NCBI RefSeq assembly: GCF_008831285.2
Contig: NC_045149.1
Coordinates: 18,553,035 to 18,617,034, forward strand
Origin: Nymphaea colorata
Lineage: Eukaryota > Streptophyta > Magnoliopsida > Nymphaeales > Nymphaeaceae
DNA length: 64,000 bases
Direction of reading: 5' to 3'
Below, in pieces: positions 3,252 to 61,252 of the stretch (its first letter is position 1; the number at the start of each line of letters is the position of its first letter). A model generated the notes under the pieces. That model did no database searches. It was given only the letters and a program-made list of their open reading frames with translations, and had not been told where the DNA came from. The position numbers were made by a program, and so were the translations under genes.

Positions 3252-6200
3252 ATGGCAACGAAGATGCAGTACAAGAATCTGGGAAGGTCGGGTTTGAGGG
3301 TGAGCCAGCTATCTTACGGGGCGTGGGTGAGCTTCGGCAACCAGCTGGACGTGAGGGAGGCGAAGTCGATATTGCAGTGCTGCCGCGACCATGGCGTCAA
3401 CTTCTTCGACAATGCGGAGGTGTACGCCAATGGGCGGGCGGAGGAGATCATGGGGCAGGCGATCCGGGAGCTCGGGTGGCGCCGCTCCGACCTTGTCATC
3501 TCCACCAAGATCTTTTGGGGAGGAAGCGGCCCCAATGACAAGGGGCTCTCCCGGAAGCACATCATCGAGGGCACGCGCGCATCCCTCAAGCGCCTCGACA
3601 TGGATTACGTCGACGTTCTTTACTGCCACCGACCGGACGCCTCGACGCCGATCGAGGAGACGGTCCGCGCCATGAACCACGTGATCGACCATGGGTGGGC
3701 CTTCTATTGGGGAACCAGCGAGTGGTCCGCTCAGCAGATCACCGAGGCGTGGTCCGTCGCCCAGCGCCTCGACCTCATCGGACCTGTCGTCGAGCAGCCG
3801 GAGTACAACCTCCTTTCCCGCCACAAGGTCTTCCCTCCCTCCCTGACATTTTTCTTTTCCTCCTGTTTTTCCTTCGGTGGTCTTGCTGTTGTGTTGCTGG
3901 GTGGCTGCTTCACCATTTTGATCCATGTCCTTGTTTAATATTGCTATGTTCGTTTTTCCTTCTGTTGGTTTGATTTAGTGTGGCCTCGTTCTGATTTGGG
4001 CTGGTTTTGTTTTGCTTTTTTGTGGCGTCGATCGATTGATGATTAAATGAGTTTGATGGTAGATGTAGGTGATTTGGTTTGATGTTGCTTTAGATTTATT
4101 GTAATTAGTCTTGTTATCTTGGAATAGATTATGATTTCGCAAATTCGATGGTGAGTATTCAAACTTGTCTAGTGGCAGTTGATTGATTCTGCATTCTGAT
4201 GGGTTTGATCGAATTGCTGGTTGGGTCGGGAAGGTGTTGGTTTTCGGGTTTTAGTCCACCCTTTAACGAGAGTTGAAGAATTTTGCTTCACATGTGCTGC
4301 TGCTTCCTGGTTTATTCAAGCTCTGTGGTCGATCATTTTACTTTTCGGTAGAGTAGGGATCATCGTGGCTTCTCAGAATCTCCTCTTGTTATTTTTCTTT
4401 TTTTGTTTATCATTTAATGATTGTTTGACAAATTTTTAGATCGCAGGTTGAAGTTTAAGTTCTTTTATTCCTAAGGTATTGCTGTTTTTACAGGGTAGGG
4501 TGATCGAAGCTTAATAGATTAAACAGTTTGCCCTTGGGTTTCTTCTTCTATTCTTTTGCCTGGTCCACACATAATTTATTTGTTTTGATTTTGTTTTATC
4601 CTTCTGATCTTGTTTACGTTCTTCATTTCCTCTCTTGTTCTTAATACTGTAACTGTTCACCTTTTCCTTACCTGCTAACTGTAAAAACCTTTTCACGTTT
4701 TTTCAGTGTTCTACTTTTCAACGTTGCCTGTCTGTTTGCCAATCAGTTGTTTGTTTCACGTCATGGTGATATTGTTTTGTCGTGCATGCAAGAAACCAGT
4801 TAAGAAATACCCAATAATGTCTTATACAGATTTAAACATGTTTGGGCATAACATGCCAAATTTGAGCGGCCATAAGAAAGTATAGTGTCTGATTCATGCA
4901 TTTGGCTTGTATATTATGCGCAGGTTAGCCTTCTCTTGAATGTAATTTGGAAAGTTTGTCTTTACAGTTTACACAACTAAAGCATGATTACCTTTTCTGA
5001 CAATAATTTGGAAAATTTGGCCTTCACACAACTCAAGATGTATCAATTCAAGAGTCAATACTTTTGAAAAGCATTATGCCTTTGTGAACTTTTGTGCGTG
5101 CATCTGTAAATCTATGCACATGCACATGCACATGCACATGCACAACCACAACCACAAGGCACAAGCTCGTGTGCCCCCATGCCAGCAAGTACTTATTTAC
5201 ATATGTGTTGACTTGTATACATCATTGTTCTCTTCTTACGTTGAAATGCTATCATGGTATGTTTACTTCATTAATTTTTGAAATGCCTTAGTCCTAAGCA
5301 TGAACTCGATGGGATCAGGTTGAAGTGGAATATCTCCCGCTTTACAGCACATACGGTCTCGGTCTTACAACATGGAGTCCACTTGCATCTGGAGTCCTCA
5401 CAGGAAAATACAATGACAAAACCATACCTCCTGATAGTCGATTTGCCTTGGAAAATTACAAGGTAAAATGCTCAAATTTCATGAATTTATTTAAACTTTG
5501 AAGCGACATATCATAAACTGCATGGAATTCCTTGTTCGGTGCTGTAGTTGTATCTGCTTTCTGATCATTAGCTTGTTTGTGCAATACATTCATGGATGTT
5601 TCAACTGTTCAAGTCAGTTTTCTGTTGAAGTTGAAATGAGGTAGTTTAAAATGATGCAAACAAAATCAGCTATGTAGAAATTTTAAAGCAGTTTTATCTG
5701 TGAAGGATCAAGAGTCTTATATGAGATAAGAAGAAGTTTTAGGGGACCATATGTAGGAGATGCAAGAAAGTTAGAGGAAACAAAGGATTAAGTGACAAAA
5801 CATTCTAGTTTTGGACCTTTATGCAAATTATCAGCTGGTAGAACAACTCCGTCCTTGTCTGTCTCTCAAGTTAGTCCTTGATATTAAACTTGTCAATTGT
5901 ATAAGCATTTTACAATGACATAAACTCATTTTGCTGATAACATTACTTACTAAGATAAGTCATTGAACATGTTCAAGAATATTCCTTTTGCTTTAACGTT
6001 GTTTGTTCACACTTCATCTTTCTTCTTCCTTCAGGAAGTTCTAGAGTACCAAAATCTCAAGGAAGTTGTTTCCTCTCGTTGTCCTTCCCTCTTCAAAGAA
6101 ATTAGTCTATTGCATGTTTTCTTCAATCATCTTTAATAAGAACTGGTTGTTGTTTGGACCTCTTGGTTTCTTGTTCCTGTTTGTCAGAGTGACATCTATA

Positions 6201-14975: not shown

Positions 14976-17900
14976 CTAGTAAACTGGTTTACTTCTCTGC
15001 CCATTAACCCTGTCCTGGAATCTTGTCCCTGCAAGAAAAACAAAACCAATTATTCCTTGCGCAAAAAGGTGAACATGCAAATCAAATGAAGCAAACCAGC
15101 AGGGGACAGCAGGAATCCACGTACAGGAACTCTTGTAAGACCCTAAGGGGTGTTTGATTACTCTGGATTTGAAATCCATGGATCAGATGTGGAACTGACA
15201 TCGCATGCTTTTGCTCATACACAAAAGATTGATGATAAAATGTATGATTCATCAAACCAAGGATTTTAGTTCAGACCTAAGGTTCACATGCAAGTTCTTT
15301 ATTTTACTTCTTTGCATTGAAAAAAAAAAAGGTTGAATTTAAGATTGGGGAGGGAGGGTCCGATCTGAAATCCATGGTTATTAAAAACTCGGGATCTCAA
15401 ATCCAAGGCTATCAAACGCCCCTTCAGGAGATCAAGGTTAACTGTAGCATTTAATTCCTTTAAAATTAAAGGCAACACCGGAAAGAGTAACTGTAACTGT
15501 TACGGCACAAAACTCACCAAGCCCATTGACTTCAGAAGTCCTCATAATTCTGAGCCTTCTCACAGTGCTCAAGAACATACTGTAAGACAAAATTAAAATA
15601 TAAGAATAGTGACATTTTGACAAGATATGAAATAATGAAAGGTATTTAAGAGTTAGGTTGCCAAGATTATAAACCGACTGTGGAATTTTTCTTTCATCTT
15701 AACAAGTTAAAATTACTCACCCCCATGGAACATCTCCAACCAACATCCAATCCCCTTCCTTGTCTTCATAAGTAAGGACAAATTCAGAGTTACCATCCAG
15801 GAGCTTTGAAGACTTGATATCAACCATCAACCCATGCTCCCTCCCCATGGCTGGAGCTAACAACAAAACCGCGAAATGAATAGTCATTCACCAAAAACAA
15901 AATCCATAAACTCTACCTGGAAAAAGAAAGTTGGTAGACAGCACATTCTATACCATTGGCGGTAGGCCTCTTAAACATCTCCTCCAATGCATGGGCCAGA
16001 GATTCATAGGAAGCATGATTCTTCAGATCCACCTTCCTTCCGATGGGAACTCCGTCCATGTTAACTTTAACGAACATGGACTTGTTCTGCCGTTGGCCAG
16101 CTTTCTCCTGCCTACTCTTATTTTTAGTCATCTCACCATAGCTGTCACAATTAATGTTGTTCTCAGCATCTTCCTCAGCTGGAACTCTGCATTGGTTTAC
16201 CAGACTGTTCATCCTGTAAGTTCTGATGGGAGGCCAACCCACTACCTGATTGCTGCTGAAATTTGTCAGATGAAAAGAAGTCAGAAATAGAAACATATAT
16301 ATATATATATACTCGCTCAACCAAATTTGAAAAGAGAAACGCCAAAGAAAATATGTTGAGTTTGATGGGGGAACACAGCAAATTATTGTGAGGAGGAAAA
16401 AACCAAAAGGAATCCAAGTTGCTGTGGTGAAAAGAAAGTATAGCTACAGAATGTCCTAGGCGGATACCGAGGGTGACTCATGAACAGCAAATCCAGACAA
16501 AAAATAAAATTATTTGTGGAACCCGATTTCGGTAACAGTAAAATCTCCAGGCCGCGGTTACCGAGAAGCCAAAATAGAAAAGTTAAAAGCAGAAACAGCT
16601 GCAAGAGACAATTTTTGCTCCAGAGGACACAAGGATCCGAGAAGAAAGAAGCCAAAAACGGCAATAAGGAAATTACCGTAGCATGGTAACTGTTGGCATC
16701 CATCAGACTTTCCGCAGTAAACATGAAAGAAACCATCGAATTACTTGAAACAGTAAGTATATATACATAAGACTCCACCCAGTATCAAAAATCTCAGAAT
16801 ATTGGGGTGTAACCCCAGAAACTAAAACCGTATTATTTGCCAAACATATATATATCTGAAATATAGATATGTGGATGCTAATCATAGTCATTAATACAAA
16901 AATTCACTCAGAAACCAACAAAGCAGATATTGATAATCTGCCCGCTCCTAACAATAAGCATGACAGGAAAATTTGATGCTGAAAAATCAAGCAAAATTTC
17001 ACATAAAGGGAATGCTTTAACCCATTCAATAAATGCCTGAAAGCCAAGTAACATAGAAAACAAGAAATATGATCAAACGTCTTCATCTATCAGAAACCAA
17101 CACATGAACAATAAATAAACAGGGTAACCATTTTTGTAAAATTTGAAAGACTTAGAAGAAATGGAATTTGGAAATCATAAACAAGGATAAACAAACAGCA
17201 TCGATACCCAAAAAAGAACCTTAAAAGTACTCCAGTATCAGAAGAAAAACAATTCCAACATGACCACAAACGAATAGAATAAATAATCTACACAAAGAGA
17301 TACCATTTTTCATTGACGCAATAGAAACAGGAAGAAAGGACTTGCTGCTCCATAACAGTTAACACGAGAACACAGCAAGGTAAAAATGAACCAACATGAA
17401 ACCAGTAGACCCAGTAACATTCCCAAAACATACTATGAAAAGAAAATTAAAACGAACCATAAAACTTGTCAACAATAAATGAAAAAAGAAACAAAATCAT
17501 TCAACAGGAAAAATGAAATAATAGAAGGTAAAAAACACACAAACAAGAACGGAGAACCTGGAAATCTCGGATCATATTGTGCCAGTAAAACACCAAATAC
17601 ACAATGAGGGAAACAAAGAGGAACAAGTATTAAGCTCATTCTTCTTCAGTACTCCACATACACACAGACATACAAACAGAGTAAATCCTATACCATCATA
17701 AGAAAAAGAAAAGACAAAACTGATCCATACAACAAAAGAGAATTGATTTAAACAAAAAAAAAATGATTTATCTCCTTTTCTTCTCATCTCTCACCTTGGA
17801 TGAGATGTCACTTCTTGAACAGAATCAGCATCTGCAGATTCATTGTGCACCCTCTTAGTCCCCGTCTGAACCATCGACGAAACCAAGTTAGTGAAATCTT

Positions 17901-18243
17901 TGGCAGTCAATATCCTCCCGATCCTCCTCCCTCCGCTGCTGCTGCCATTCCTCCTCTGATACATGTCATCTTCATCAACCCTCCTCTCATTCATGCTGTT
18001 CAAGCTCAACCCCAGATTGAGCTCCGTCTCCTCCAACCCCATCCCACCTTCCTGGCTCTTCTTCTGGTTCAGCAGACCAGAACAAGGATAGGAAGAGACC
18101 TCAGAGATGCCAATGTAGTCCTGCTCGGTGAGGCCACCACCACAAACACCATTCTCTACCTTGGACACTGTTGACATTGAACCATTGGCGGAGCTTCCTG
18201 TAGATGATCCACCACCGCCCCTACCTCTTATAGCCTGCTGCAT
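14976..18243 (-). CDS. Aux/IAA auxin-response repressor, IAA12/BODENLOS-IAA13 type
   Basis: Five exons on the minus strand, 17795-18243, 15954-16255, 15721-15856, 15518-15579 and 14976-15028, encode 333 aa. The start is the first in-frame ATG, at 18243; the frame stays open further upstream but without an ATG. Domain I is the EAR motif [10 protein letters not shown] (residues 72-81), which recruits [17 protein letters not shown] segment near residue 109 is typical of IAA12/IAA13. Domain II is the TIR1/AFB degron [19 protein letters not shown] (153-171). Domains III and IV form the PB1 dimerisation fold: [18 protein letters not shown] (210-227) and [20 protein letters not shown] (276-295), with the basic and acidic faces both present. 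The tail RQRSKPVY-like end (GQRSKPVY) also fits the clade. In the family, the protein represses ARFs such as MONOPTEROS until auxin triggers its ubiquitination. Assignment to Aux/IAA is certain; assignment to the IAA12/13 clade is likely. Confidence 0.97.
15143..15427. mobile_element. MITE-like element with ~33-bp terminal inverted repeats, copy 1
   Basis: The left end reads aaggggtgtttgattactc then tggatttgaaatcc. The right end, reverse complemented, reads aaggggcgtttgatagcc then ttggatttgagatcc. The ends match over about 33 bp with a few changes. The interior has no coding capacity. It lies wholly within intron 4 (15029-15517) of the Aux/IAA gene. No clear target-site duplication is visible, so the superfamily (hAT or PIF/Harbinger) is open. 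Related copies lie at 38773-38992 and 45532-45787. Confidence 0.8.
16256..17794 (-). other. Intron 1 of the Aux/IAA gene with NAGNAG acceptor
   Basis: AT-rich intron of 1.54 kb separating the exon with the EAR motif from the exon with the degron. Its 3' end reads ttcAGcAG in the gene's direction, so either AG can be used in frame. The proximal choice (exon from 16255) gives Ser-Ser-Asn-Gln before the degron; the distal one (exon from 16252) removes one serine. I see no other feature in it. Confidence 0.7.
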
Positions 18244-18354
18244 GTTCTGCTTTTCCCTCCCTTTTTCTTCTTCCTTCAACCTTCTGAATGCCCAGCAAGC
18301 CCAAAAGCAAAATAAAAGAAAAAGAGAATATTGGGAAAGAAACTTGGATTTGCT

Positions 18355-18377
18355 AGAGAGAGAGAGAGAGAGAGAGA
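18355..18377. repeat. (AG)n tract in the Aux/IAA leader
   Basis: About 11 AG units, read as (CT)n on the coding strand, about 110 bp upstream of the Aux/IAA ATG. CT/GA tracts in plant 5' leaders are common and are bound by BPC/GAGA factors; that role here is inference. Confidence 0.8.
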
Positions 18378-20518
18378 AGAGCAGAGAGGGATGAACAGAA
18401 GCGAAGGGGTTGTTATCAAAGACGTTTATATTGGAACGTTGTTTTTCTCAACGATGACTGATAAGTGTGAAGACCATTTTTCAAATGACAATTATGTCCT
18501 TTTGGTGTCGCCCTACAATGACTAAATTGCCCTTTTCTAGGTGTGGCACAAACCTAACCTCTTCTAGCTTGCCTAAGTTTGCTCGTGAATCCCTTTTCAT
18601 AAAATACAACAAAAACGAAAACTCAACCAATATATATACACACACATATATATATATATATATAATCAACTTTCTGAATTTCAAGAGTTGTGCATGAGAT
18701 GTGACATCTTGATGTTTGATATGATAGGAAGCGCCATTGATATTTAAAATCAATTTCAATTATTCAATACATATTGTTGTTCGATATGATAGGAAGCACG
18801 AATCACATTTAAAATCAATCCCAAATATTAAGTAGAATCTATTTTAGCTCTGAATTCTTATATCATTTAGATATAAATTACAAAATGAAAACCATTAACA
18901 TGGTAGGTGCTAAACAAGCACTATTTCCTCATATTGCTGCCAACGAAATTTATTTACTTGTATGATCAATTTTTACATAGAATACAAGAATATGTCGCGT
19001 CGTGGCCAAGTCTGTCTGCTCCACACAATTAAATTATTCATGGGAACGAAAGGCGAGGGTAAAACCGTCACAGTGAAGATTCGAGCGCCTCGCGTATGGA
19101 AAGGGGAGAATGTCTTATCGTCGGGAAATCGCGCGGTGGGGCCCACCGTGAAAATAATCGCCACATCGGAGCCCACTCCCCGCCGGTAGATCCAATCAGC
19201 TGTTGCCACCTAAGCCGACAGCAGGGAGAGGATTGGATCTCGTCCTACGTGTCAGCTCGCTTTGCCGTCCGATAAACTTATAGCTTATATGTATCGTGTC
19301 GCCTCCTTGCCGATACGGTACGGGACCGATACAGTTTTTTAAAAATATATAATATTTTTTTTAGGTCAATATATTATAATGTATATCACATAACATGGTT
19401 TGTTAGACACAGGATTCTGACAATTGTTTTTTTTTTTTTTTTTTAAAGGTCTTCGCGTTGAAAATCCTATAGAGTCAAATGGCGGGTGCCCCGTTATTTT
19501 ACCTTAAATTGAGGATCTCAAATCTCACAAAATCAGGGATTTGCCGTCTGAGATTTGGAATCTTCTCATTATTCGTTGCAGGACGTTTTAACCTACTGTC
19601 CATCCTCTGCTGCTTTTGCGCACGCACCCACACACACTATTCTAACGACTCTTTATAAAGAAGCCTTGTTTAAGAGTACGGGCTGACCCGATATTTTACG
19701 ATCCATATACATCCGAACCCGGCGACCCGACCCAGAAGGGTGGGAATTAAATCCCTGGCGTCGAATCCGGGCACTATCGGAGCTCTGATGGCCGCAGGAT
19801 CATGTCTGGACCAGGGGAGACAGGTCGCCGCACCATGGGGCCCACCGTCCCTTAATTAACCCCCTCTGAAACTTTATTTCCTCCCGTAATTATTATTCCC
19901 ACCCCCCTTTTTTTACGTAATTACTAACACACCCCTGTCCTCCGCTTGATTCTAGAAGGTCGCCTCAAGGACCTAAATACCCTCGACCAGCCTCCCCCTG
20001 GATCTCCATTCCACGTCGGGGTACGATTGTCATTTTCTAAAATTGTTTTAATTTATTTTTCTTTTTTTGTGTTTAATTATTATTTATTAGTGTTGGCGGG
20101 AATGAGACACCACCCGAAACACGAAGAACCTGTCGCCCACCTGCTCAATCTTGCGTCGACACGTGTCCTGTGCAATATATAAAACAAATAAATATTTACC
20201 CTCAGAAAAAAAAAATCTTTTTTTTTTTTTTAAATGTACCGAAAGGAGAGCCACTGTGTGATAGCCACCTAGAAGTGAGACCAGGTGTCACGAGCATAAC
20301 ATAAGCGAGATAAAATGTCGCCGTCTTTCCCTGCATTCCTTACAAGTTCTGTATATATATATATATTAATCTTTATATCAATTGCCGTCTTTTAACTAAA
20401 TAACATGTTATTCATTACCCACGACATTTTAAGTGGCACGATGTTAACCAATTTCAGCTCTTGTTGCTAACTACATTAAGCTTCAAATCCAATTATAATA
20501 TATCTTCATTATTCTTGT

Positions 20519-48474: not shown

Positions 48475-51400
48475 TTATAACCAGTCATGAAACTTTGGGT
48501 TTCCACCATTGCCCTTAATAGAACTGCTCTTCAAAGGGACATCATCAAACGGTTGGCACCCCAAACCCAGAACAATCTCCTTGTGTACAGGACTTGTTTC
48601 TTTGGCACTCTTTGGAACCGATGGAGAATTCTGATCCTCAGCAAGAGTACCAGAACCTACTATGGAACGCAAGAAGTAGGACTTTGATGGTATACCCTTA
48701 CCTTTGGTTGATCTGCAAGAAGGACTAAAATTCAGTCTTTTTGAAGGATCCTCAACATTCCCAGTAGGTTTCTGACAACTTTCACATTCCATAGTTGAGG
48801 GATCAAGAAAGAGGTTGGGAAATTTTTTATCAACATTTCGAGTTCTCACCAATTCTCTAGCTATTCTCTCTTCCCCACTGTTATCTTGGAAGAAATTGAT
48901 GGCCTTGTCTCCCGTGTTCACAGTAGCTTTTTCAACTTTCAGATTCTCAGTCAGTGACTCTGATGGAAGCCTCATCACATTCAACTCAGCAGGACCATCA
49001 GGATGTTTTATTGTGGGACATTCTGGGTCAAGAACTTTTGCTGTTTCAGCCTCTGGATCAAAAGAAGAGGAATCTAATGAAGCAGCTAAATCAACTTCAG
49101 GGCAAGAGATAGAATATTCATGCTGAGAAGCATTTTCTGGTATACTGGAAACCTCGTCCACATTCAAGTTGACAATCTGACGATCTTCATTTTCTAACCT
49201 TTTTGAATGAAATACTTCCATGACATGACCATTTTGATTTGCATTCAATCCACTGCTGGACAGCCTCAAAACACAGTCTACTAGGAAGTTCCCTGAACTT
49301 TTCTCAACATAGAGTTCCTCACTAGTTTTATTTTCACCTAGAGATAATTCCAGCCCTTCTTTCTGTGGGGTTCTAAGATCAATATTGGAAAGATTCACTG
49401 AAGCAAGATGATCTTCTATCACCTTAGCAATCTCATGGTTTTGTTCCTCTGATGTACACAACAATGGAACATACATTGAACCTGAAGTGCCATCGGAAGA
49501 TCCTTCCTGCAGTACAGGAGATGTTATTTTAAAGTCATTGACTATGTGAGCATCTGCAGATTTTGAGATAGTCAGGTCGACTCTGTTTCCACAATGTTCA
49601 TGTTTGCCAACCAACTCACCGCAGTTGCAGCTCTCTAAAATCCTGGGTTTGTCTATTGCAAGATAGATCTCAGCAGTAGATTTTGCCACTTCAATGCTAT
49701 TTTCCAAATTCCCATATCCCTCCAGATCAGGCTTTGAACTTCCACTTTCCTGACCCAATGTGCCATCTGAACAATCCTTTGCTTTGGAGGACAGGATATC
49801 ACCATCTGTGACCCCACATGGAATGTCATTAGCAATTTTCTCTGCAGGCACAGAATGATAGGAATCACCATCATCAGTAGAAACACTTGTAACTGTTGTC
49901 ACCATATCAACAGCATGATTCCCTTCAGTGTCTTCCACTGCTTTGTTCTGCATACTGCAGGTCTCAAGTCTATCAATGACATCTGAAATGATATTGGTGG
50001 CTACGGGAGTAGCACGTGTTGGAGGAACATCTCTTGAAAAATCAGCTGCAACACTTGCAACTGTGAGCAAAGAGATATCTGCAGGTGTTTCTCTTAGCAA
50101 TGGATTCTCATGAACAGATTCCATCTCCATGTCATTTTTAGCATTCTGAATAGTAGCAACTTGCTGACCGGCTTCAAGCACAGGAAATGCCTTGAACGGA
50201 GGCACTTCAGATCTTTCTGTTGACACCTTGCACCTTTCCCCTGTTCATTAAACGAGAAAAAAGAAAATAGTACCACTTTCAAGATCCAAGAATAGTTGTT
50301 ATTGTTACAATGCAAAAGAAAGGACAACTTCACCTGCTTGCCCTTCAAATGGTTGCAGACAATTCAAGCGCTTTTCTAGTAATGTTGTTCCAGGAAACAC
50401 CATCAAGTTGATCCTATTGTATAGCTCCTTAGAAGAATCATCTATGTGTTTGAATCCAAATGCAGACGTCCAAGTGTCAATTAATTCAGGAATAGCTGAT
50501 ATTACCAGCCTTTCCACTTTGACAGACATTAACATCTGTTACATAGTACCAGCCAATATGAGACAAAGCAAAAAAGGAAAAGAAAAACAATGAGCAGAAG
50601 AAAGAACTGCAAATCAATTTCTGTACAATAATCTTCCTTCCCATTTCCCCTTTTGAACTTGGTTTGTGAGAACATGTCACCAGAATGACTGCAAAATGAG
50701 GCCAAGAATGGTCCTCTTCACAGCAATCCACAAATATGGGATTGACAAATCAAGATTAAATCAATAACCACTGTTGAAATTAACATATCTGACAAAAGCA
50801 TCTTCGCATGGAAGCTTATTGCGAATAAGGAGTGATCAAGACCACGAAGCCTCTGGATGTGATTTCCATTACGCTGAGTCTCTTGACAATGCAGTCGAGG
50901 AGCCAAGAGAACACAAATTCTAGTACATATGAAACAAAACTTCCACCTTTCATGCCTTCGAGCAGAAAATTTTCAAGCTCTTAATATCCAGATTCAAAAC
51001 AGAAAATGAAAACCAGAAAAAGTGAAAACCTGTAAGAACAAACAAAGCCCACCTATCATTTCCTAGCGCAGTACTACTCAAATCAAATGGTGTTCCGTTG
51101 AGGTTCACCATTAAACCAATGAAACATTACTTCTTGTCCATAATCTCATTAACATGGTCCACTGATTTTCCCAGTTCATCCAAAAATAACTTTCTAGTAT
51201 TCATTGGCAGAGTATGCTACTTTTGCCCTTTAGCAAACCTAAAAGTCTGTATGTCTAGAGTTATAACTCGTAATGCAGCTATATCACCATTTCCCAACTA
51301 ATTTTCCCAATTTCTGGCACTCATTCAACAAATCGTCCGATTACAACTCTTCACTACCTGAGTACCCATTGTGCAAATAGAGGAAGAATATGACATATGG

Positions 51401-54400
51401 AGTCTAGGTTAGTCCTATTAATGTCAAAACTACTGGACCAAGTTGTGACCATGGTAGGCAGCTCAACTTTTCAAACCATAAATTTCAAAATACGGCAGGT
51501 CAAGTACGATGGAACAGAAGGAAAGCATCAATTCAAGAAGCTACATATTTCATCAGCAGCAGCATTTGAAACAATTTTGTACTTTCTGAGATTAAAAAAA
51601 AAAAGATGCATTCATTGTTAGAGGCCTAAGGCCTAATGGAAGCACTTACCTCTTCAATGGCCTTAATAAGCCGGCGACACATGCCCTGACGACGATATCC
51701 ACTACAAGTTGCAACAAGGGGCAACTCTGCCACTACAACTCCATGCACCCTGCACAACCCCAGCTGTGAGAATGTGTTATACAACCTTATCAGAAGAGCA
51801 AAAGCATAACAAACACATTAAATCTCATTTCTAAAGAGGCCAGAACACAAATACTAAGACATGAATTTGATTTTGTGCAACGAATTCCAGTAGGATACAA
51901 GTAACACTTAATGCCTACAAAGGACTCTACAAAACGAATTTTTGCAGTTATTAGGGCACAAGCACCTTGATCTTGGCTTAACTGCACAAATAAAACACGT
52001 ACAGCACAGAAAGATATACATTCTCCCTTAGGATCATCACATTGTGACCACTCTATCCAGGCTCATCCGTGACTAAAGCATGCACATATGAAATGGTCAA
52101 AGTCAGCCCCTATAACTTGAAACTGTACCTCGATTAGCTTAAACCTGGCCAAATAAAACATATACAGCAGCAAAAGATATATATTCTCCTCAATTGAGGA
52201 TCGTGACATTCTGACAACTCATTCAAGGCTTCTCCCAGACTAAAGCATGGAAACACTAAGATTATCAAAATCAGCACCTTTCACTTAAACCTGCACCTCC
52301 TTTGGATAAACCTAGGGAAATAAAACATGTACAGCACCTAAGGACATACATTCTCCTCAGTCAGAATCATAACATTCATGCCACTCTTTCCAGGCATGTC
52401 TCTGACTAAACCATGGATACAATGAAATGGTCAATATCAGCTACTTTGACATAAACGTGTACCTCTTGTGAAGCCTAAAGACCTCATAAAAGAAACATGC
52501 GAAAGTAAACCATTTTATATCAAAGTATCAACCATTTGGAACTCCAGATTTGAGCCATAGAACCATGAACCAACAGCACACATTAACAATAAGATCGACT
52601 TAGTCTACGACTGTATACTTCCAATCAAACTATTTCTTCAAACCTCTAGGAAGTACTTTCAAACTTGAAACTTAATGAAAACGTTTTTAGTTCCTAGTTC
52701 TTACCAACTCCGCTACATTTTCTTTGTTTAGTTCCATCCACTGTTATAGTATGTTCATTTGCCAGGTGAAATAGAAACTAAGTCGATGAAAATCACAAAC
52801 AAACACTGTGACATTAGCAGCACTGAAGGATGACGCACAAAAATTTCACATTCCATTGTGGCATTCTCGAATTACATATATCCAGGCATATATGTCAACT
52901 ACATGTAGTTATTTAACAGCAGAAATGCACATGTACAACGATGGATCAACTACAAAACTCAAAGTACTGATGAACTCCAGTACAATGAACTAGAAGTGCA
53001 ATCAAGGTTACCACAGCTACCAGGCATGTAGATATAGAGAAATCTGTCAAACCCTGTTTCACATGGATGCTAGATCTTCACTCTGATTATCATGGGTCCT
53101 TATATACAACTTACCATAACAGCACAAAAGCTATCAAATCATTTTATTCACTCAGCATAGCCATGTGACATGGTCCAATGGTCATAATGGAGCATGTCAC
53201 CATCAATCCAAGACAATAATTCTTCAACTCAAAACTGAAAACCACATTTAGATGGGAATATCCTGGTGACATGAATGAACTAGTAAACCAGTACCTCATG
53301 GATGCTACAGAGATGAGCTCATCGCCTCTCTCCAGGATCACAGTATAAAACCCTTGATAATTTAGCCGTGCAAAATTAGATCTGTGAACATCAAAAGCTA
53401 CATGAATGTCATAATTTAAGAGTTGTACTGACAAATCACAAAAAAAAAATGTCAGACTCTGGTAAACTGCTGTAGGTAATACTGAAGAGTAGCCAGCTAA
53501 CCCGTCCTCAATTAATTAACAAAGAATAGCTTATATCTCTAACTAACATGCTACATTTGTGATTATCTTGTAGACTATTTCAACATGTTTGACAAGAAAT
53601 GATATTAAAAAATGTTGTGACCCAAAGAGCTGTATTATTGACTGTATGCCCATTAAAGGTTAATACTTAACTTCATACCAATCTTTTATTCTCAACTTAT
53701 TTGTTTAATAATCCACAAAATGAATGATGACCAAATCTCCCCTGCATGAGATATTGCTTTTCACAAGTGAAAAGCAAAATTCATTGGCCAGTTCTTCACC
53801 TTATGGTAAGGTTGTGGACTTAGCACCTTGTCCAGCAAAGCACCAACTCATATGAAATTTACAGTAACAATATACATTGAGCATGTCATCCAAAGAGAAC
53901 CAACAAAAAAAATTACAAGCCTTAGCATGAACAACTCACAACCCCCCATTTTGACAAACAGTTGCTATCTTTTCACCAAATAAGACAAAGATGCAAATGT
54001 GCACAAAAAATGGCAAAATAGCCTGAAAATGACATGTTATCCACCATATGAAAGAGTTAAAATAAGAGACAAAGCACTAGCATAAAATATGAAATGCAAA
54101 ATACAGAAGAAAACAAAAGATCTGACCAAATATTCTCACAGAAAGCCTATCATGGTCAGGATGGCACACTACTTAACAATAAAAAAAGTTGAAAAATACG
54201 AAAAATGGGTTTGTGTAGCTAATAGGTACAGTATACTGTTGCACAGCCAGAAAATTCTAGTTCTATTGGTCACAGCTATGTAAACCACTGCACACGTAAC
54301 GGTGTTTGTCACTTCTAAGAAAAACAGCACGCTCTCAATACGTTTCTTTTGGGACAAAGGGGCTGGTCTAAGATGAGGGGCTTTAGGAAGATGGGTTTCA

Positions 54401-57400
54401 TTTCTACATGGAATATCGAAGGTGAGATTTATTTGCTAGATTCTTAAGATTGTATAATTCACAAACAAGAAACAAGCCAAACAGGAAAGAAATGGAAAAG
54501 AAAAAGAAAGCTACACAACAAGGTACAAGTCTAGAAAAATTATCATATGACAAAACATGGACAAAATAAATCAAGGTGAAGGCCTCACCCCCAACTATAT
54601 AGGACATGTGGAATCATATCAATGCCAGTTCTTGGGTCTATCATAGGCATAAAGCACTCTTCCATAATAGTAAGTGCAACAGCTAGTTTAGTATTGCACT
54701 CTGCCATTAATGCAAGTTTTTGTACTGAACGAACTTTTGGATCGCTGTCAATGCATTTCAGAAGCGTCCAAGAAAAACCTCCTTCAATATGGTGCACAAC
54801 TCCAATATGAGAACGTAATTCTGAATAAACCTGCAAGTAAATTGTTAGATGATTTTATTATGCACTTACTGTCTTGCATACACATAATCAAGTGCAAGGC
54901 AAACATACACAGAAGAGAGAGAAATAGATGGTTGCTAATGCAAATGCATGGGGTACTAAAGATCTCTACGTATATTGTAATTATAATTGAAAGTCAAAAA
55001 TGTTCTTTTTCTTAATTTCTCAGCAAGGAAATAATAAGCATATTTACATTTCTTCTGCTTTTCTAGAAAAAAACTCAGCAAGATCTCCATTCATAAGTAT
55101 ATTCGGTTACTAGTAAAAATTATTAGTATCTATATTTTTATTGAACTGTTAATACAAATGACCAGACTATGGTCAGAAGTTAAGATAGATGTCAGTTAAA
55201 AAAAAAACTTGTTCCATGTCAAAGAAAATGAAGAAAATAAACACAGAAGTGCCCCTATATTTGGAAATAATAAGAAATCAGGAAGTCAACATGCAAAAAC
55301 CCAATTGGTGAATAATTTATTATTCAAATTGCCTTGCCCAAAACAAAAATGAAATGGTGAAAGTAGGCACCTGTGTCAGTCATCAAATTTCTTATCTTCA
55401 ACTAAGAAATAATACCATAATAGGTTTTTCCTTATCATGCTACAATTGCAAGAAAATTATTCAAATAATATGAGAACAGACTTTTGAAGGGTTAAGTACC
55501 TTCTGACAGTTCTCTCCACAAAACCATGTTTCTGTGATTGATGCATCACCCTCACACCGAACTCTATCAGCCAAACAGGGCTTATGATCTGTCCATCAAA
55601 TAACACATAAGTGATGGCATATACAGCTTAATTTCATGTTACTGGAGATTGAGGAAAGCAGAAATTACATTTGCGTTCACACTGTGAACACTCCAACACA
55701 TCCTGCTGAGCAACTTCACCACAGAACTCGCAGATACAGTATGGGCAATACCACTTGTCCTCAGGAAGCAACTGAATATGTTTACCAAAAGAAAAAAGTC
55801 AATGCTCTAAGGATCATAGATCCGCTTCTATTGTAACTTCTAAAGCAAAAACTATCAGATATTTCTTTTATCAGTAGAAGAAACTCATTGTTCTTACAAT
55901 TTTTGTGATAAAAAGCATATATAGAGGTGACTAGAAAATCATAAGGTCAAGCATAAATGTGGTTAGTAAATTTTTGTTAGGAAAGGAAAAAGTTAACAGT
56001 GGAGGGGAGGAAGAGCCTAATGCCAAGAATACTCAGACAGCAGCCGCAATGACTGGGATGCACAAATTCCAAAGGTTTTCCTCTTCTACTAAACATTTTT
56101 AGGAATTTAGCATCATTTGCATCAACCAAATAAGTTGAGAGGTATTTAAAAAGATAACTTCTAGAAGAACAAAATCTCCATAATCCAATAGAACAATAAC
56201 CACAGTATCTGCAACAATAACAAGTCTACATACATATATATTTGGTATGTATGGTCAAGTGCACTTTTTTAGCGATTGTATTCCAGCACTGACCATGAGA
56301 ATGTGGTCTACACAGTGAACATGCTGACATGCAGAAAAACAAGACTCAAGTCATGTCCCATTAGTCTGATGACTCTGATCTTGTAAAGCACATAATTATG
56401 GTCAGATTTTCAAATAAGAAAAACAGAAGCACATTTACTCTCTCTCTTCTCCCTCTCTCTCACTTTCCCTCAACTACTGAAAGGTAGAATGTAGGGTTAG
56501 CAAACAAATTGGATCCAGCACTGTGAAATGCATTAGATGTCAGATCAAAATCTGTTCTGGTACCTTAGAATTTGTCAAAATCCACAAACCAGACCCAGAC
56601 CACTTGCAGCCCTCGTCTGTGAGTTAAGTATGTCATAACATTTAGACATGTGAGCGCATGCATATAGAGATTAAAACAGAAAAAATGATAACCTGATTGT
56701 TTAGGCAAGCATGATGAAAAGTAGATGGGCAGCTGTCACAACATATTAGCACACCTCCATCCCCACAAATTCCACAGGTATCATCATTAAGGTCCACCTC
56801 ATTAATTTCTGCCGCACGTATGCTGCCTTTTCTAGTCTTGTACTCAGCTGACCAAGCCCGAAGCTGACATAGAGTGAAGGATTCACCACTCTCCACAAAA
56901 AGATTTAATGATAAACGGCCAGCTTTGCAACCAGCATGGATCTTAAAAGCTAACAGGGAAAACAAATTATTACAACATTTGCATAACAGGCCATCCCTTG
57001 TAACCCATCCATCTTTAACCAGTGCCCCACTTTTTGGGCTTCGGTAATGAACTAGCTCATTTTCAAATAAAGCACCAGAATCAATCATCCAAGATAGGAT
57101 TGTCCTTTTGTGCAATGTAGACTGCTCTCCCTCTAATGGATGCTGTGCAGCTTGGACGAGATTCCGTGGAAGCAACTTGCAGCCACCTTTTTGACTCTTC
57201 AGCTTCCTTTTTGTTCGTGATGTTGCCTTCCTTCCTCTGAGAGGAGACTGTTTCGTACAAGTGAAATCCTTATTTTTTATTATAGCTGCAATCAAGAGAT
57301 CGTCATCATTTATTCGACATCCTTTTTTACTTGAAACAGCACCATCTTTTATTTTCTTTCGTCCACTTTCATTGTAAGCCTTAGATGTATATAAATTCAC

Positions 57401-60400
57401 AACTTTCCAGCTATCTTCATGATCAACAAACAGATCACCAGTGGAAGCCCTGGCTGGGCTATTCCTTTCATCATCTGCAACAAGTTTTTGTTTCTTTAGG
57501 GCATGAATTTCATCATGAGATTTGTTATTCGTTTTATTGGTAACTTGTTGCACAAATGTACCAGCAAGAGAAGATTTTCTATCTGCTTTACATTGTTTTG
57601 TAGCTGGAGATTCGGAGGCCCTTTTAAGCCTTTCACTTTGACGGCCTGGGCTTATGAACCGTCTTCTACTTTCACAAGCTGGTGAAGCATCTACTTCCAA
57701 GTCACTGTCACATAACTTGTTGGCTTCAATTATCAATGGCTCCTTGTACTTCCCAGTCAACATTTTCTTAGGACTAGGTCCCTCAAAATTGGGACCTTCT
57801 GAGACATCGCATCTTAGCTTCCCATGATTTTTAGAGTAAAAAATTTCCTTGGAAATCAAAGTTAAATCTTGGTTATCATCCGAAATTTCAGCCAGGCATG
57901 CACCATCATCAGTACCAGCAGAAGTACCCTTCCTGCGAGAACTCCTACGGCAACCAACATGCTGGACACTCTTATGCTGTTTAGCCTGCTTTTGAGCAGG
58001 TGATGGCTTTTCATTCACCCAAAGGTGTTCAGGTAATTCATTTTTGTGATTCGAGCCCCTCTCAAAGATGGCCAACTGTGCTTCTTTTTGCTTATTGGCT
58101 ACTTTAATATTCCTTAGAACACCCATCTGACTGCCTTCAACACCAGAATCAACAACAAAAAAATCTGAGGCTTTACATCTTTGTGAAGTACAGGTTGCGC
58201 CTACATCATGAGGAACAATGTCAAAAGAAATACTGGGTGACGCATACGATGAAGCTTCAAGTGGTTGCATGCCAGCATTTTGGATAGAATTCCTGTTCAA
58301 AGCACGCCTGCATAATGTACCATGCAAGCCTTCACTTCCATCAATGTGCAGAGATTCAGTCAACTGGCTGTGAGAACCGTCCGATTCTAGCTGCGGTACT
58401 AGGCTCAAATCCAACCTTCCAGGTTCATCATCAGGGGCAAGGAGTTCCAACCTCCTTTTAGTGGCCAAACGTTTTGATGATCGGCAGCAATGAGAGTTAT
58501 TAGTTGATCTCCTCAAAGCTTTTGTACCCTCTCTGCCTTTCAGTGGTTCAAGCCTCTTGATAAACAGCATAGTCACAAAGGGGTCAAATAGAATCCATCT
58601 CTTTAGTGATGCAACATGATGACCCCAATGTTGTACCTCTCCTTCAACTAGAGCTAATGCATCAGTTAAGTCGGCCCAAAATTCAGTTGTTCCATCCCAC
58701 TTTCTTTCAGCTGAGTCAAATACAGGCTTGTTCTTGCCGCAAAATAGCATTTTAGCAGATGCCTTCCATGCTTTGATGGCTGATGTATAACGAATCCTTT
58801 TATTCCCAGGTGACACATAGACAGAATCAACAGCATTTTTTGTAAGCCTGTGACGCAATTGCACCTCGAATCCTGCAGATACAAGAAAAGCTTTTACATA
58901 TTGGAAGAGCTTAACACGGAGTTCAGCAGTGAAGGTTTTCTTCCATGATGGTTTAACCTCCTCGGACATTAAAAGCAGTGCTTCCTGTGTTCTCTTATCA
59001 GTCTCTTCTGTATAGATGCTTAAAGGTTGGATGTCGTCACCAAATATAACAACTGCATTGTTCTCATCAATCTTAGGAGCAGAGCTCTCCTGTGAAACAG
59101 GAGACATGATCATGACTTTTGCATCAATGGTCTCTTTAGCCAAACCATCACTTGGGCTTGGTGTGTGCAAGCACGATGCTTCAGAAGCTGCTGACATTTT
59201 CTGATGTGATTGAAAACAATCTGAGCATTCTTCCTCAACTTCCCTAGAGTCTGATGCTGCTTGTTTCTTGGAGGCACCATCATGAGAAAACATATCATCA
59301 ACCATAGATTCAGCCACTAATCCTCTAATATATTGAGTCACCACCCTATTGTCTATTGATTCAGTAGCATTATCAACCACTGTGAGGAACACTGAATGCA
59401 CAGAAACATCCCCATTCTTTTCTTCCGCCTTTGAACTCAACATCCCAGACCTGGTTGCATTAGATGCATCAACCAAGACAGTCCCATGCACTAAATCATT
59501 GTGAAATTTTAATTTGTGGCTTGAGTTCAAGATCCCTGAACCATTTTCATGTGATGCAGCCACCTCCTCAGAACCAGGAATACCAGTGTGCAATTTTACC
59601 GGCTTGGATTTCACACCTTGACCGCCTAGTGACAGAGAAAAGCAAGGGTGTTCTGTAGAAGAGGCAGATTTTGTGTGTAACTTGCTCCGAAGCCTGAGTT
59701 TCCCCTTCAGACCTTCAATGTCTGTTTTTGCGGCTTCTCTAGCCAAAACATTATTTGGCCTATGTGTATCCCATCCATTAGCTTCAGAAGCAATTAACTT
59801 TTTCTGACCTAATTCTGTGGAGCACCATTGCTCATGTTCTCTACCTAACCCTACTTGTTTCTTGGCAGGATCATCATGAGAGGTCATATTGTCAGCTGAA
59901 AATATGGCGATTGGTCCTAACATGCATTGACCTGCCCCATTGTCATGCCCTGATTTGATAGTGTCACTGACAACCTCAAGGGCTACTGAATGCACAGAAT
60001 CATTTCTAAATTCTAGACAGGGACTCTTATCAGAAGATCCCTCAAATAAACCAGACCCATGCACTGGATCGTTTTCATTCTTGTCATGAAGTTCTAGGCT
60101 CAGTATCTGAGAATCATTCTCATGAGATGCACCAACAGTAGCAGGACCAGGAGCATCACTATGTACTTCTGCACCTTGGGACTCTAAATCCGATGGTGCA
60201 CATGAGCTTTCCAAATGAGAAAAAGGTGTGGAACACAATTTAATTCCACCTCCTAATTTTCCATTCCCAAAATCTGTATCCATAACTTCCCTTGCTAAAG
60301 CACGTTGTGGGATATGTGTCTCCACGTTGGAGGCTTCGCATGCAGTCGACATTCTCTGATATGATTGGCAGGAACTGGTGTGATCTTGCTCATTCCTGAT

Positions 60401-61252
60401 ATCATCTGATGCTATTTCTTTCAAGGCAGAAGCATTGACAGATGATCTAACATCAACTGCAGATTCGTCTACTGGTCCTACCATGTGTTGGATCAATTTC
60501 CTATGACCAATCGATCCCACAACATCATCAACTGCCTTTGAGGCCACAAAAGGCAGGGAACCGTGGACAAGTTCCTCTTCAGATTCTACATTCAACAATT
60601 GACAATTCATTTCAGATAATGCACCAACCAATCCAGAGCCATGTATTGAAGAATTTTCAACCTTCTCATAGTTTTTCAAATGTGACATCCCAGAACCATT
60701 CTCAGAAGGCGCACCAACTATACAAGAACCAGTACTATCAGGAGACACCTTCAACTGCTTCGCCTTCACACATTGAGGCTCCAATCCCACTGGCAAAAAG
60801 GAGTACTCTATCAGAAGCGTGGGTTTATAACCGCTTAACTCAGGCCCAACTCCAGACTTCCCTTTTGGAGGCCCAAAATTTGTACCAGAGGTACAACAAC
60901 CATCTCCATCCACCACTGGGGCGCAAGACTCATCCGTCCTGGCTGATTTCCTGGAATTTGAGACCACAAAACCATCCATATTACCATTTGCATTTCCTGC
61001 ATTGCCTGACATAGGTTGAACACTTGCATGTGAATTGAACCCATCAAAGGGGCAAGCATTTTGAACACTCCTTGCTGTATTTTCGCACAAATCATTGGTC
61101 TGAGAAAACACAGAAGAGAATATATGGTATTCGCGGTTAGACCCGTCAAGACAACAGTCACCATCAATCAAACTTCCAAGCTCTTCTCCAAATAAAGCTT
61201 TCACCGCCTCTGCCTTATTGAACTCCCAAACCCTTGTTCTTTTGGCACCCAT
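48475..61252 (-). CDS. IDM1-like PHD-finger GNAT acetyltransferase, giant form
   Basis: Eight coding exons on the minus strand, 56693-61252, 55669-55771, 55500-55588, 54589-54830, 53295-53381, 51650-51749, 50334-50535 and 48475-50240, join in phase to 2382 aa. Residues 1-150 contain a conserved-looking start; 155-715 hold three degenerate ~180-residue tandem repeats; 760-906 form a conserved block ([36 protein letters not shown]). About 1380-1475 is the SAND/Tify-like segment ([19 protein letters not shown]) typical of this family. The PHD finger starts at Cys1493 ([18 protein letters not shown]) and continues across the intron to WYCPYC; a second Cys-rich PHD-like unit ends near 1584. A GNAT fold spans about 1585-1790, with acetyl-CoA loop [11 protein letters not shown] Ser-rich tail of ~590 aa follows. 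Arabidopsis IDM1 (about 1190 aa) acetylates histone H3 and opposes DNA methylation silencing. Family membership is firm; activity is inferred. Confidence 0.93.
49339..49353 (-). other. EAR-type LxLxL motif in the C-terminal tail
   Basis: Codons for LELSL within the context [10 protein letters not shown], residues 2091-2095 of the PHD/GNAT protein, about 300 residues beyond the GNAT domain. LxLxL motifs of this exact form recruit TOPLESS-type corepressors in other plant proteins. A five-residue motif in a disordered tail can occur by chance. Confidence 0.45.
51988..52483. repeat. Threefold ~165-bp tandem repeat in an intron
   Basis: Three diverged copies in intron 5 (51750-53294) of the PHD/GNAT gene start at 51988, 52151 and 52318. 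Each begins aaataaaaca, then cagca and acattctcc or atattctcc, then a gactaaagcatgg-like or gactaaaccatgg segment and a tcagc segment. Unit spacings are 163 and 167 bp. Divergence between copies shows it is old. No open frame runs through it. Confidence 0.85.
53382..56692 (-). other. Introns 1, 3 and 4 of the PHD/GNAT gene
   Basis: Within this span the longer non-coding stretches are intron 1 (55772-56692), intron 3 (54831-55499) and intron 4 (53382-54588). They are AT-rich with no recognised insert. Intron 1 interrupts the first PHD finger between its HHACLNNQ half and the WYCPYC half. Confidence 0.65.
59108..60790 (-). repeat. Three degenerate tandem repeats within the PHD/GNAT coding exon
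   Basis: Approximate units: residues 155-340 (60233-60790), 354-527 (59672-60193) and 542-715 (59108-59629). Landmarks recur in the same order: ENGSG / HENDSQ / HENGSG; a VHGS or VHGT step; a KKQ or similar step; ACEASN / ASEANG / ASEASC; and LAREVMDTD / LAREAAKTD / LAKETIDAK. The units are diverged, so the duplication is old. I know of no named domain matching the unit. Confidence 0.8.

Follow-up and report, generated by a model that had tools for sequence, protein, structure and literature searches.

A hierarchical internal triplication in the first coding exon of an IDM1-like gene from Nymphaea colorata

The first coding exon of an IDM1-like gene in Nymphaea colorata hosts three diverged, head-to-tail copies of a unit of 187-201 residues, and each of these units holds a further duplication of about 30 residues. 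The triplication is confirmed and the nested duplication is a new observation that goes beyond it; outside this array the 2382-residue protein has no clear internal repeat. We consider it likely that the array is an old, hierarchical and weakly constrained expansion within the gene, one that is disordered and acts mainly as a spacer. The gene was studied in a stretch of 64,000 nucleotides, here called the window, which covers positions 18,553,035-18,617,034 of the forward strand of contig NC_045149.1 (assembly GCF_008831285.2).

The IDM1-like gene lies on the reverse strand at 48475..61252, where an open reading frame joined through GT-AG junctions predicts eight coding exons. Exon 1 (61252-56693) begins with the ATG at 61252 and occupies a reading frame of 4.6 kb. 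It is followed by exons at 55771-55669, 55588-55500, 54830-54589, 53381-53295, 51749-51650, 50535-50334 and 50240-48475, the last of which includes the stop codon. The model was built from sequence alone, with the GT-AG sites picked by means of anchors and phase, and the spliced frame, ending at 48475, gives the same length of 2382 residues as the first-pass annotation of this DNA. The IDM1-like character proposed there is likewise borne out by Pfam, which recognises three domains on the reverse strand. These are a Tify domain binding domain (TDBD, PF16135; aa 1415-1463, 56864..57010, E 1.7e-14), a PHD finger that is interrupted by intron 1 and was matched as a spliced fragment (PF00628; aa 1493-1532, 55736..56776, E 1.5e-10), and an IDM1_C/GNAT acetyltransferase domain spread over exons 4-7 (aa 1644-1782, 50371..54653, IDM1_C E 1.4e-59). 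The IDM1_C match (PF23209) scores 200.6 bits against a cut-off of 33, and Acetyltransf_10 matches the same acetyltransferase region with an E-value of 2.7e-5. An IDM1_C domain, a PHD finger upstream of the GNAT domain and a TDBD upstream of the PHD finger are all features of the IDM1 family, and the predicted protein is a member of it, an assignment made at the level of the family.

The TDBD, the PHD finger and the GNAT-type IDM1_C domain are common to the Nymphaea protein, to Arabidopsis IDM1/ROS4 (At3g14980), which has them in the same order, and to the Pfam IDM1_C family. However, Arabidopsis IDM1 is about 1190 residues long, roughly half the length of the Nymphaea protein, which differs from it by the tripled N-terminal segment and by a last exon that carries 587 residues C-terminal of the acetyltransferase domain and has no Pfam match at an E-value of 0.01. 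From the N- to the C-terminus, the Nymphaea protein is composed of the tripled block (aa 130-713), a region at about aa 745-900, the TDBD, the PHD finger, the IDM1_C/GNAT domain and the last exon. The stretch aa 1826-2382 is acidic, with a net charge of -39.

The three units were delimited with Smith-Waterman, BLASTP and HMM comparisons. Unit 1 spans aa 130-325 (196 residues, 60278..60865), unit 2 aa 326-512 (187 residues, 59717..60277) and unit 3 aa 513-713 (201 residues, 59114..59716), all on the reverse strand. The first-pass annotation had described three diverged tandem units of about 180 residues at 59108..60790, that is, aa 155-715. The tandem array is real, but its units are longer than this and it extends further upstream, to 60865.

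The units can be aligned from end to end, with pairwise identities of 29-38%. Smith-Waterman scores of 168 (units 1 and 2), 215 (units 1 and 3) and 185 (units 2 and 3) compare with maxima of 67, 77 and 69 in 2000 shuffles per pair; the shuffles preserve composition, therefore composition does not account for the match. With a word size of 2 and a lowered threshold, filtered and composition-corrected BLASTP gives E-values of 4.6e-16, 5.8e-23 and 4.3e-20 for the same pairs (2.1e-18 to 7.9e-27 without filtering and correction) at identities of 29-36%, and the alignment of units 1 and 3 runs over 177 columns without a gap. HMMs built from two units found the third in 3 of 3 cases, with E-values of 6.7e-35, 9.5e-30 and 5.9e-38, each test being a search against a single sequence.

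The comparison of the whole protein with itself, as suggested in the first-pass annotation, gives the same picture. Of 276 pairs of 190-residue blocks taken from the 2382 residues, 12 scored higher than any shuffle (maximum 63). Each of these pairs joins blocks that start at aa 96-666 and lie within the array or overlap it; pairs that include a block beyond aa 855 reach 46 at best. Local entropy in 45-residue windows (unit means 3.66-3.82, minima 3.40-3.50) is close to the values for the protein after shuffling (mean 3.80, 5% point 3.55), and some windows fall below these. These windows and the Ser-rich (12-15%), acidic-leaning composition of the units are what a chance or low-complexity resemblance could appeal to, yet this explanation is refuted and its probability is negligible, since 0 of 2000 shuffles per pair reached the observed scores and the filtered BLASTP matches persist.

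Some searches did not register the repeat. When exon 1 and the last exon were each compared with themselves by BLASTP at the default word settings, no repeat was reported, and Tandem Repeats Finder reported no long-period DNA repeat. A tblastn search of both exons against the window returned self-matches only; the same search missed the internal repeat, so it is weak evidence against further copies in the window.

A second level of duplication becomes visible when the three-unit profile is compared with itself. There is one strong off-diagonal, where columns 50-79 align with the 30 columns that follow at a score of 24.4; in 500 column permutations the mean was 10.8 and the maximum 16.4, thus none reached this score. 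We refer to the two halves as A and B. On the reverse strand, A is found at aa 175-204 (60641..60730) in unit 1, aa 369-398 (60059..60148) in unit 2 and aa 560-589 (59486..59575) in unit 3. B follows at aa 205-234 (60551..60640), aa 399-421 (59990..60058) and aa 590-619 (59396..59485), respectively, the copy in unit 2 being shortened and the weakest match of a B element to the A profile (1.1 bits). A profile trained on A recognises B and a profile trained on B recognises A (0 of 1000 shuffles each), although the anchors for these profile tests were picked after viewing the sequence and the column permutation is the unbiased test. A candidate third element after B was rejected, its score being reached by 193 of 1000 shuffles with the A-trained profile and by 24 of 1000, a borderline result, with the B-trained one.

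With a 30-residue sub-duplication in each unit, the array is hierarchical. Identity is 43% among the A elements (39/90) and 30% among the B elements (23/76), and between A and B it is 31% both within units (26/83) and across units (51/166). A and B are thus as similar within a unit as across units and as B elements are to each other, and all of these values are below that for A. This implies that the A/B pair predates the triplication, or that the two events were near-simultaneous.

Are the landmarks shared by the units motifs, or the remnants of a longer similarity? The first-pass annotation listed four, said to occur in the same order in every unit. The HENGSG-like landmark (aa 183, 377 and 568), the ASEAS-like landmark (aa 304, 488 and 689) and [13 protein letters not shown] (aa 319, 503 and 704) are indeed in register. 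The fourth, VHGS, is out of register in unit 1 (aa 229), where the true counterpart of aa 397 and aa 588 is the IHGSG that starts at aa 203.

In the ungapped alignment 37 of 180 columns are identical across all three units. A simulation of decay at a uniform rate, matched to the mean identity, yields 36.0 +/- 5.1 such columns (200 runs), and gamma-distributed rates with shapes of 2, 1 and 0.5 yield 41.5, 43.4 and 48.5, with 37 or fewer in 22%, 14% and 2.5% of the runs. Strong rate variation is therefore disfavoured, while moderate variation is compatible with the data. The invariant columns are also unclustered, with 5 adjacent pairs where 7.5 are expected (p 0.92) and 5 columns in the densest 12-column window where 5.9 are expected (p 0.99). 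These simulations, run with three sequences on a star tree and with rates taken from BLOSUM62, have low power for one short motif. Judged by the alignment, the landmarks are probably the survivors of uniform decay and not motifs.

How strongly has the protein sequence been maintained? Nei-Gojobori estimates for the three pairs are 0.92, 1.08 and 1.03 for dS, 0.64, 0.56 and 0.58 for dN, and 0.70, 0.52 and 0.56 for dN/dS. The identity of 33-37% fits a simulated omega of about 0.7, whereas simulations at omega 1 average 22-25%, with 97.5% points at 28-30%. This comparison flatters constraint, in that an alignment was fitted for the observed sequences but not for the simulated ones. The dN/dS ratios lie inside the neutral ranges for a kappa of 2.5 (0.48-1.11) and of 4 (0.39-0.92), consequently the case for constraint rests on identity; for a kappa of 1.5 (0.63-1.18) two of the three ratios fall below the range. 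The tripled stretch is most likely under weak constraint at the protein level.

These same ratios, together with the uniform decay, are what would be expected if the units had no particular function and were insertions tolerated through a neutral ratchet. We regard this as possible but doubtful, given that the identity exceeds the neutral means, with the caveat of the fitted alignment, and that the frame has been kept open.

The values of dS near 1 indicate that the copies are old. At the rates that we assume for plants, their age would by inference be at least tens of millions of years. The three pairwise distances are alike, therefore the copies either formed within a short time of each other or have undergone homogenisation.

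The first-pass annotation suggested that the array could be a multivalent binding surface. In a structured or sharply conserved form this is not supported by the invariant columns, which fit a uniform rate and are unclustered, by the dN/dS of 0.52-0.70 or by AlphaFold2, which gives no fold with an alignment of three rows. A looser version is that each unit, or each A/B element, serves as a disordered short motif to which an alpha-crystallin-domain partner of the IDM2 type binds. Three units would then raise the avidity towards oligomeric IDM2-like proteins and, through them, towards methylated chromatin marked by MBD7. According to PMC4416881, IDM2 binds the N-terminal part of Arabidopsis IDM1 in yeast two-hybrid assays, IDL1 binds the C-terminal part, and MBD7 binds IDM2 and IDL1 in yeast two-hybrid assays, though not IDM1. 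Assemblies of IDM2/ROS5 of about 670 kDa are described in PMC5462541. The tripled block lies within the N-terminal third of the Nymphaea protein, so that an IDM2-like partner could dock there weakly at repeated sites, although the sequence does not demand it.

The A elements are somewhat better kept than the B elements, as the identities above indicate, which speaks for docking, and some constraint may exist. However, no motif is sharply conserved, the invariant columns do not cluster, and their density is similar in the A/B elements (13/53) and elsewhere (24/127). Moreover, the text consulted in PMC4416881 does not map the IDM2-binding stretch to this region more closely than to the N-terminal part of IDM1. 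We consider docking of this kind rather unlikely. The spacer, the tolerated insertion and the docking site overlap and are not mutually exclusive, and the probabilities that we attach to them are not meant to sum to one.

The structural evidence comes from AlphaFold2, applied to unit 3 with the other two units as its alignment (three rows); prediction for a single unit had been among the first-pass suggestions. The result is no fold, with a mean pLDDT of 35.6 and nothing but one weak helix (residues 163-180). The control, aa 735-975, a stretch expected to fold and modelled as a single sequence, scarcely does better (mean pLDDT 39.6, core 52-64), so that structure prediction offers modest evidence for disorder. 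Aromatic residues make up 3.0-3.7% of the units compared with 12.8% of aa 745-900, which points in the same direction. Family searches with a unit stayed below the cut-offs in Pfam (best E 0.13) and NCBIfam (best E 0.045), and the best E-value in the PDB was 1.5. In view of the dN/dS, the uniform column decay, the composition and the AlphaFold2 model, disorder is the most likely state of the tripled stretch. That the units are instead three copies of a structured domain with a new fold would accord with their end-to-end alignment at this length and with the gapless match of units 1 and 3, but it is very unlikely with no predicted fold, few aromatics, near-uniform decay and no match in the PDB or Pfam.

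Long tandem repeats occur in disordered regions of eukaryotic proteins. The Nymphaea array resembles these in its diverged in-frame copies and its lack of a predicted folded unit, and differs from them in that its units are few and long and contain a nested 30-residue duplication.

The preferred explanation, an expansion that serves mainly as a spacer, can be described as a series of steps. From the A/B similarity we infer that a segment of about 30 residues was doubled inside exon 1 and, from the homology of the units, that a larger unit of some 190 residues, with the A/B pair inside it, was then multiplied to three copies. The tripled stretch would have turned into a long flexible spacer that connects the N-terminus to the domains of the remaining protein. 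Any binding of partners would take place via weak, repeated short segments and not via folded modules.

Downstream of the array, on the reverse strand, there is a probable folded domain at aa 735-975 (58328-59050), where the methyl-DNA-binding domain of IDM1 might be expected. PMC4416881 describes in-vitro binding of CG-methylated DNA by an MBD located N-terminally in Arabidopsis IDM1. The Nymphaea segment had no Pfam match up to an E-value of 10, and Pfam identified no MBD; that the protein reads methylated DNA, as the first-pass annotation had it, is thus not confirmed by these searches. AlphaFold2 gives a core of helix-strand-strand-strand-helix with low confidence, and a fold search of this model against the PDB returned no match at E <= 0.001, a result to which we give no weight in view of that low confidence. 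Composition and this weak model make it probable that about aa 745-900 are folded.

Searches for relatives covered prokaryotic, viral, phage and plasmid collections, and their empty results are therefore silent on the spread of the array in plants. None of 31 pattern stretches in prokaryotic genome contigs and none of 211 in viral contigs was confirmed for the unit alignment. The same is true of 3 stretches for the exon 1 protein and 10 for the TDBD-PHD fragment in viral contigs, and of 280 for the PHD-GNAT fragment in prokaryotic genome contigs. The array DNA had no match among plasmids, nor the exon 1 protein among phages. In the literature, the titles and abstract openings among the matches listed describe no repeat in the N-terminus of IDM1.

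IDM1-like proteins of angiosperms have a conserved SPVSQES-like motif. In the Nymphaea protein the letters SPVSQES stand directly after unit 3, following [13 protein letters not shown]. On this basis unit 3, which adjoins the motif, would be the ancestral segment, and we offer this as a lead.

Elsewhere in the window, Rfam and tRNA scans of the whole stretch found nothing. An ORF at 3252-3938 on the forward strand encodes an aldo/keto reductase domain (PF00248, E 2.4e-40) and presumably resembles a plant potassium-channel beta subunit. An ORF at 15916-16443 on the reverse strand encodes an AUX/IAA domain (PF02309, E 1.5e-29). A further ORF at 17791-18447, with no Pfam match at an E-value of 0.01, may be the first exon of this AUX/IAA gene. 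The AUX/IAA exon and the IDM1-like gene both point to plant DNA.

What would the array mean for the IDM1 family? The most far-reaching proposal is that a plant lineage rebuilt the N-terminus of an IDM1-type protein as a hierarchical docking array. Its three units and six 30-residue elements would bind oligomeric alpha-crystallin-domain partners by avidity and so tune the recruitment of anti-silencing acetylation by methylated chromatin. We believe this to be improbable. If the units do bind a partner, the number of copies would offer a natural means of adjusting how the IDM complex is recruited to methylated DNA. If they are a spacer, as we prefer, the array would be an ordinary instance of growth by duplication in a disordered region, and the case would be a caution against reading the landmarks of diverged copies as motifs.
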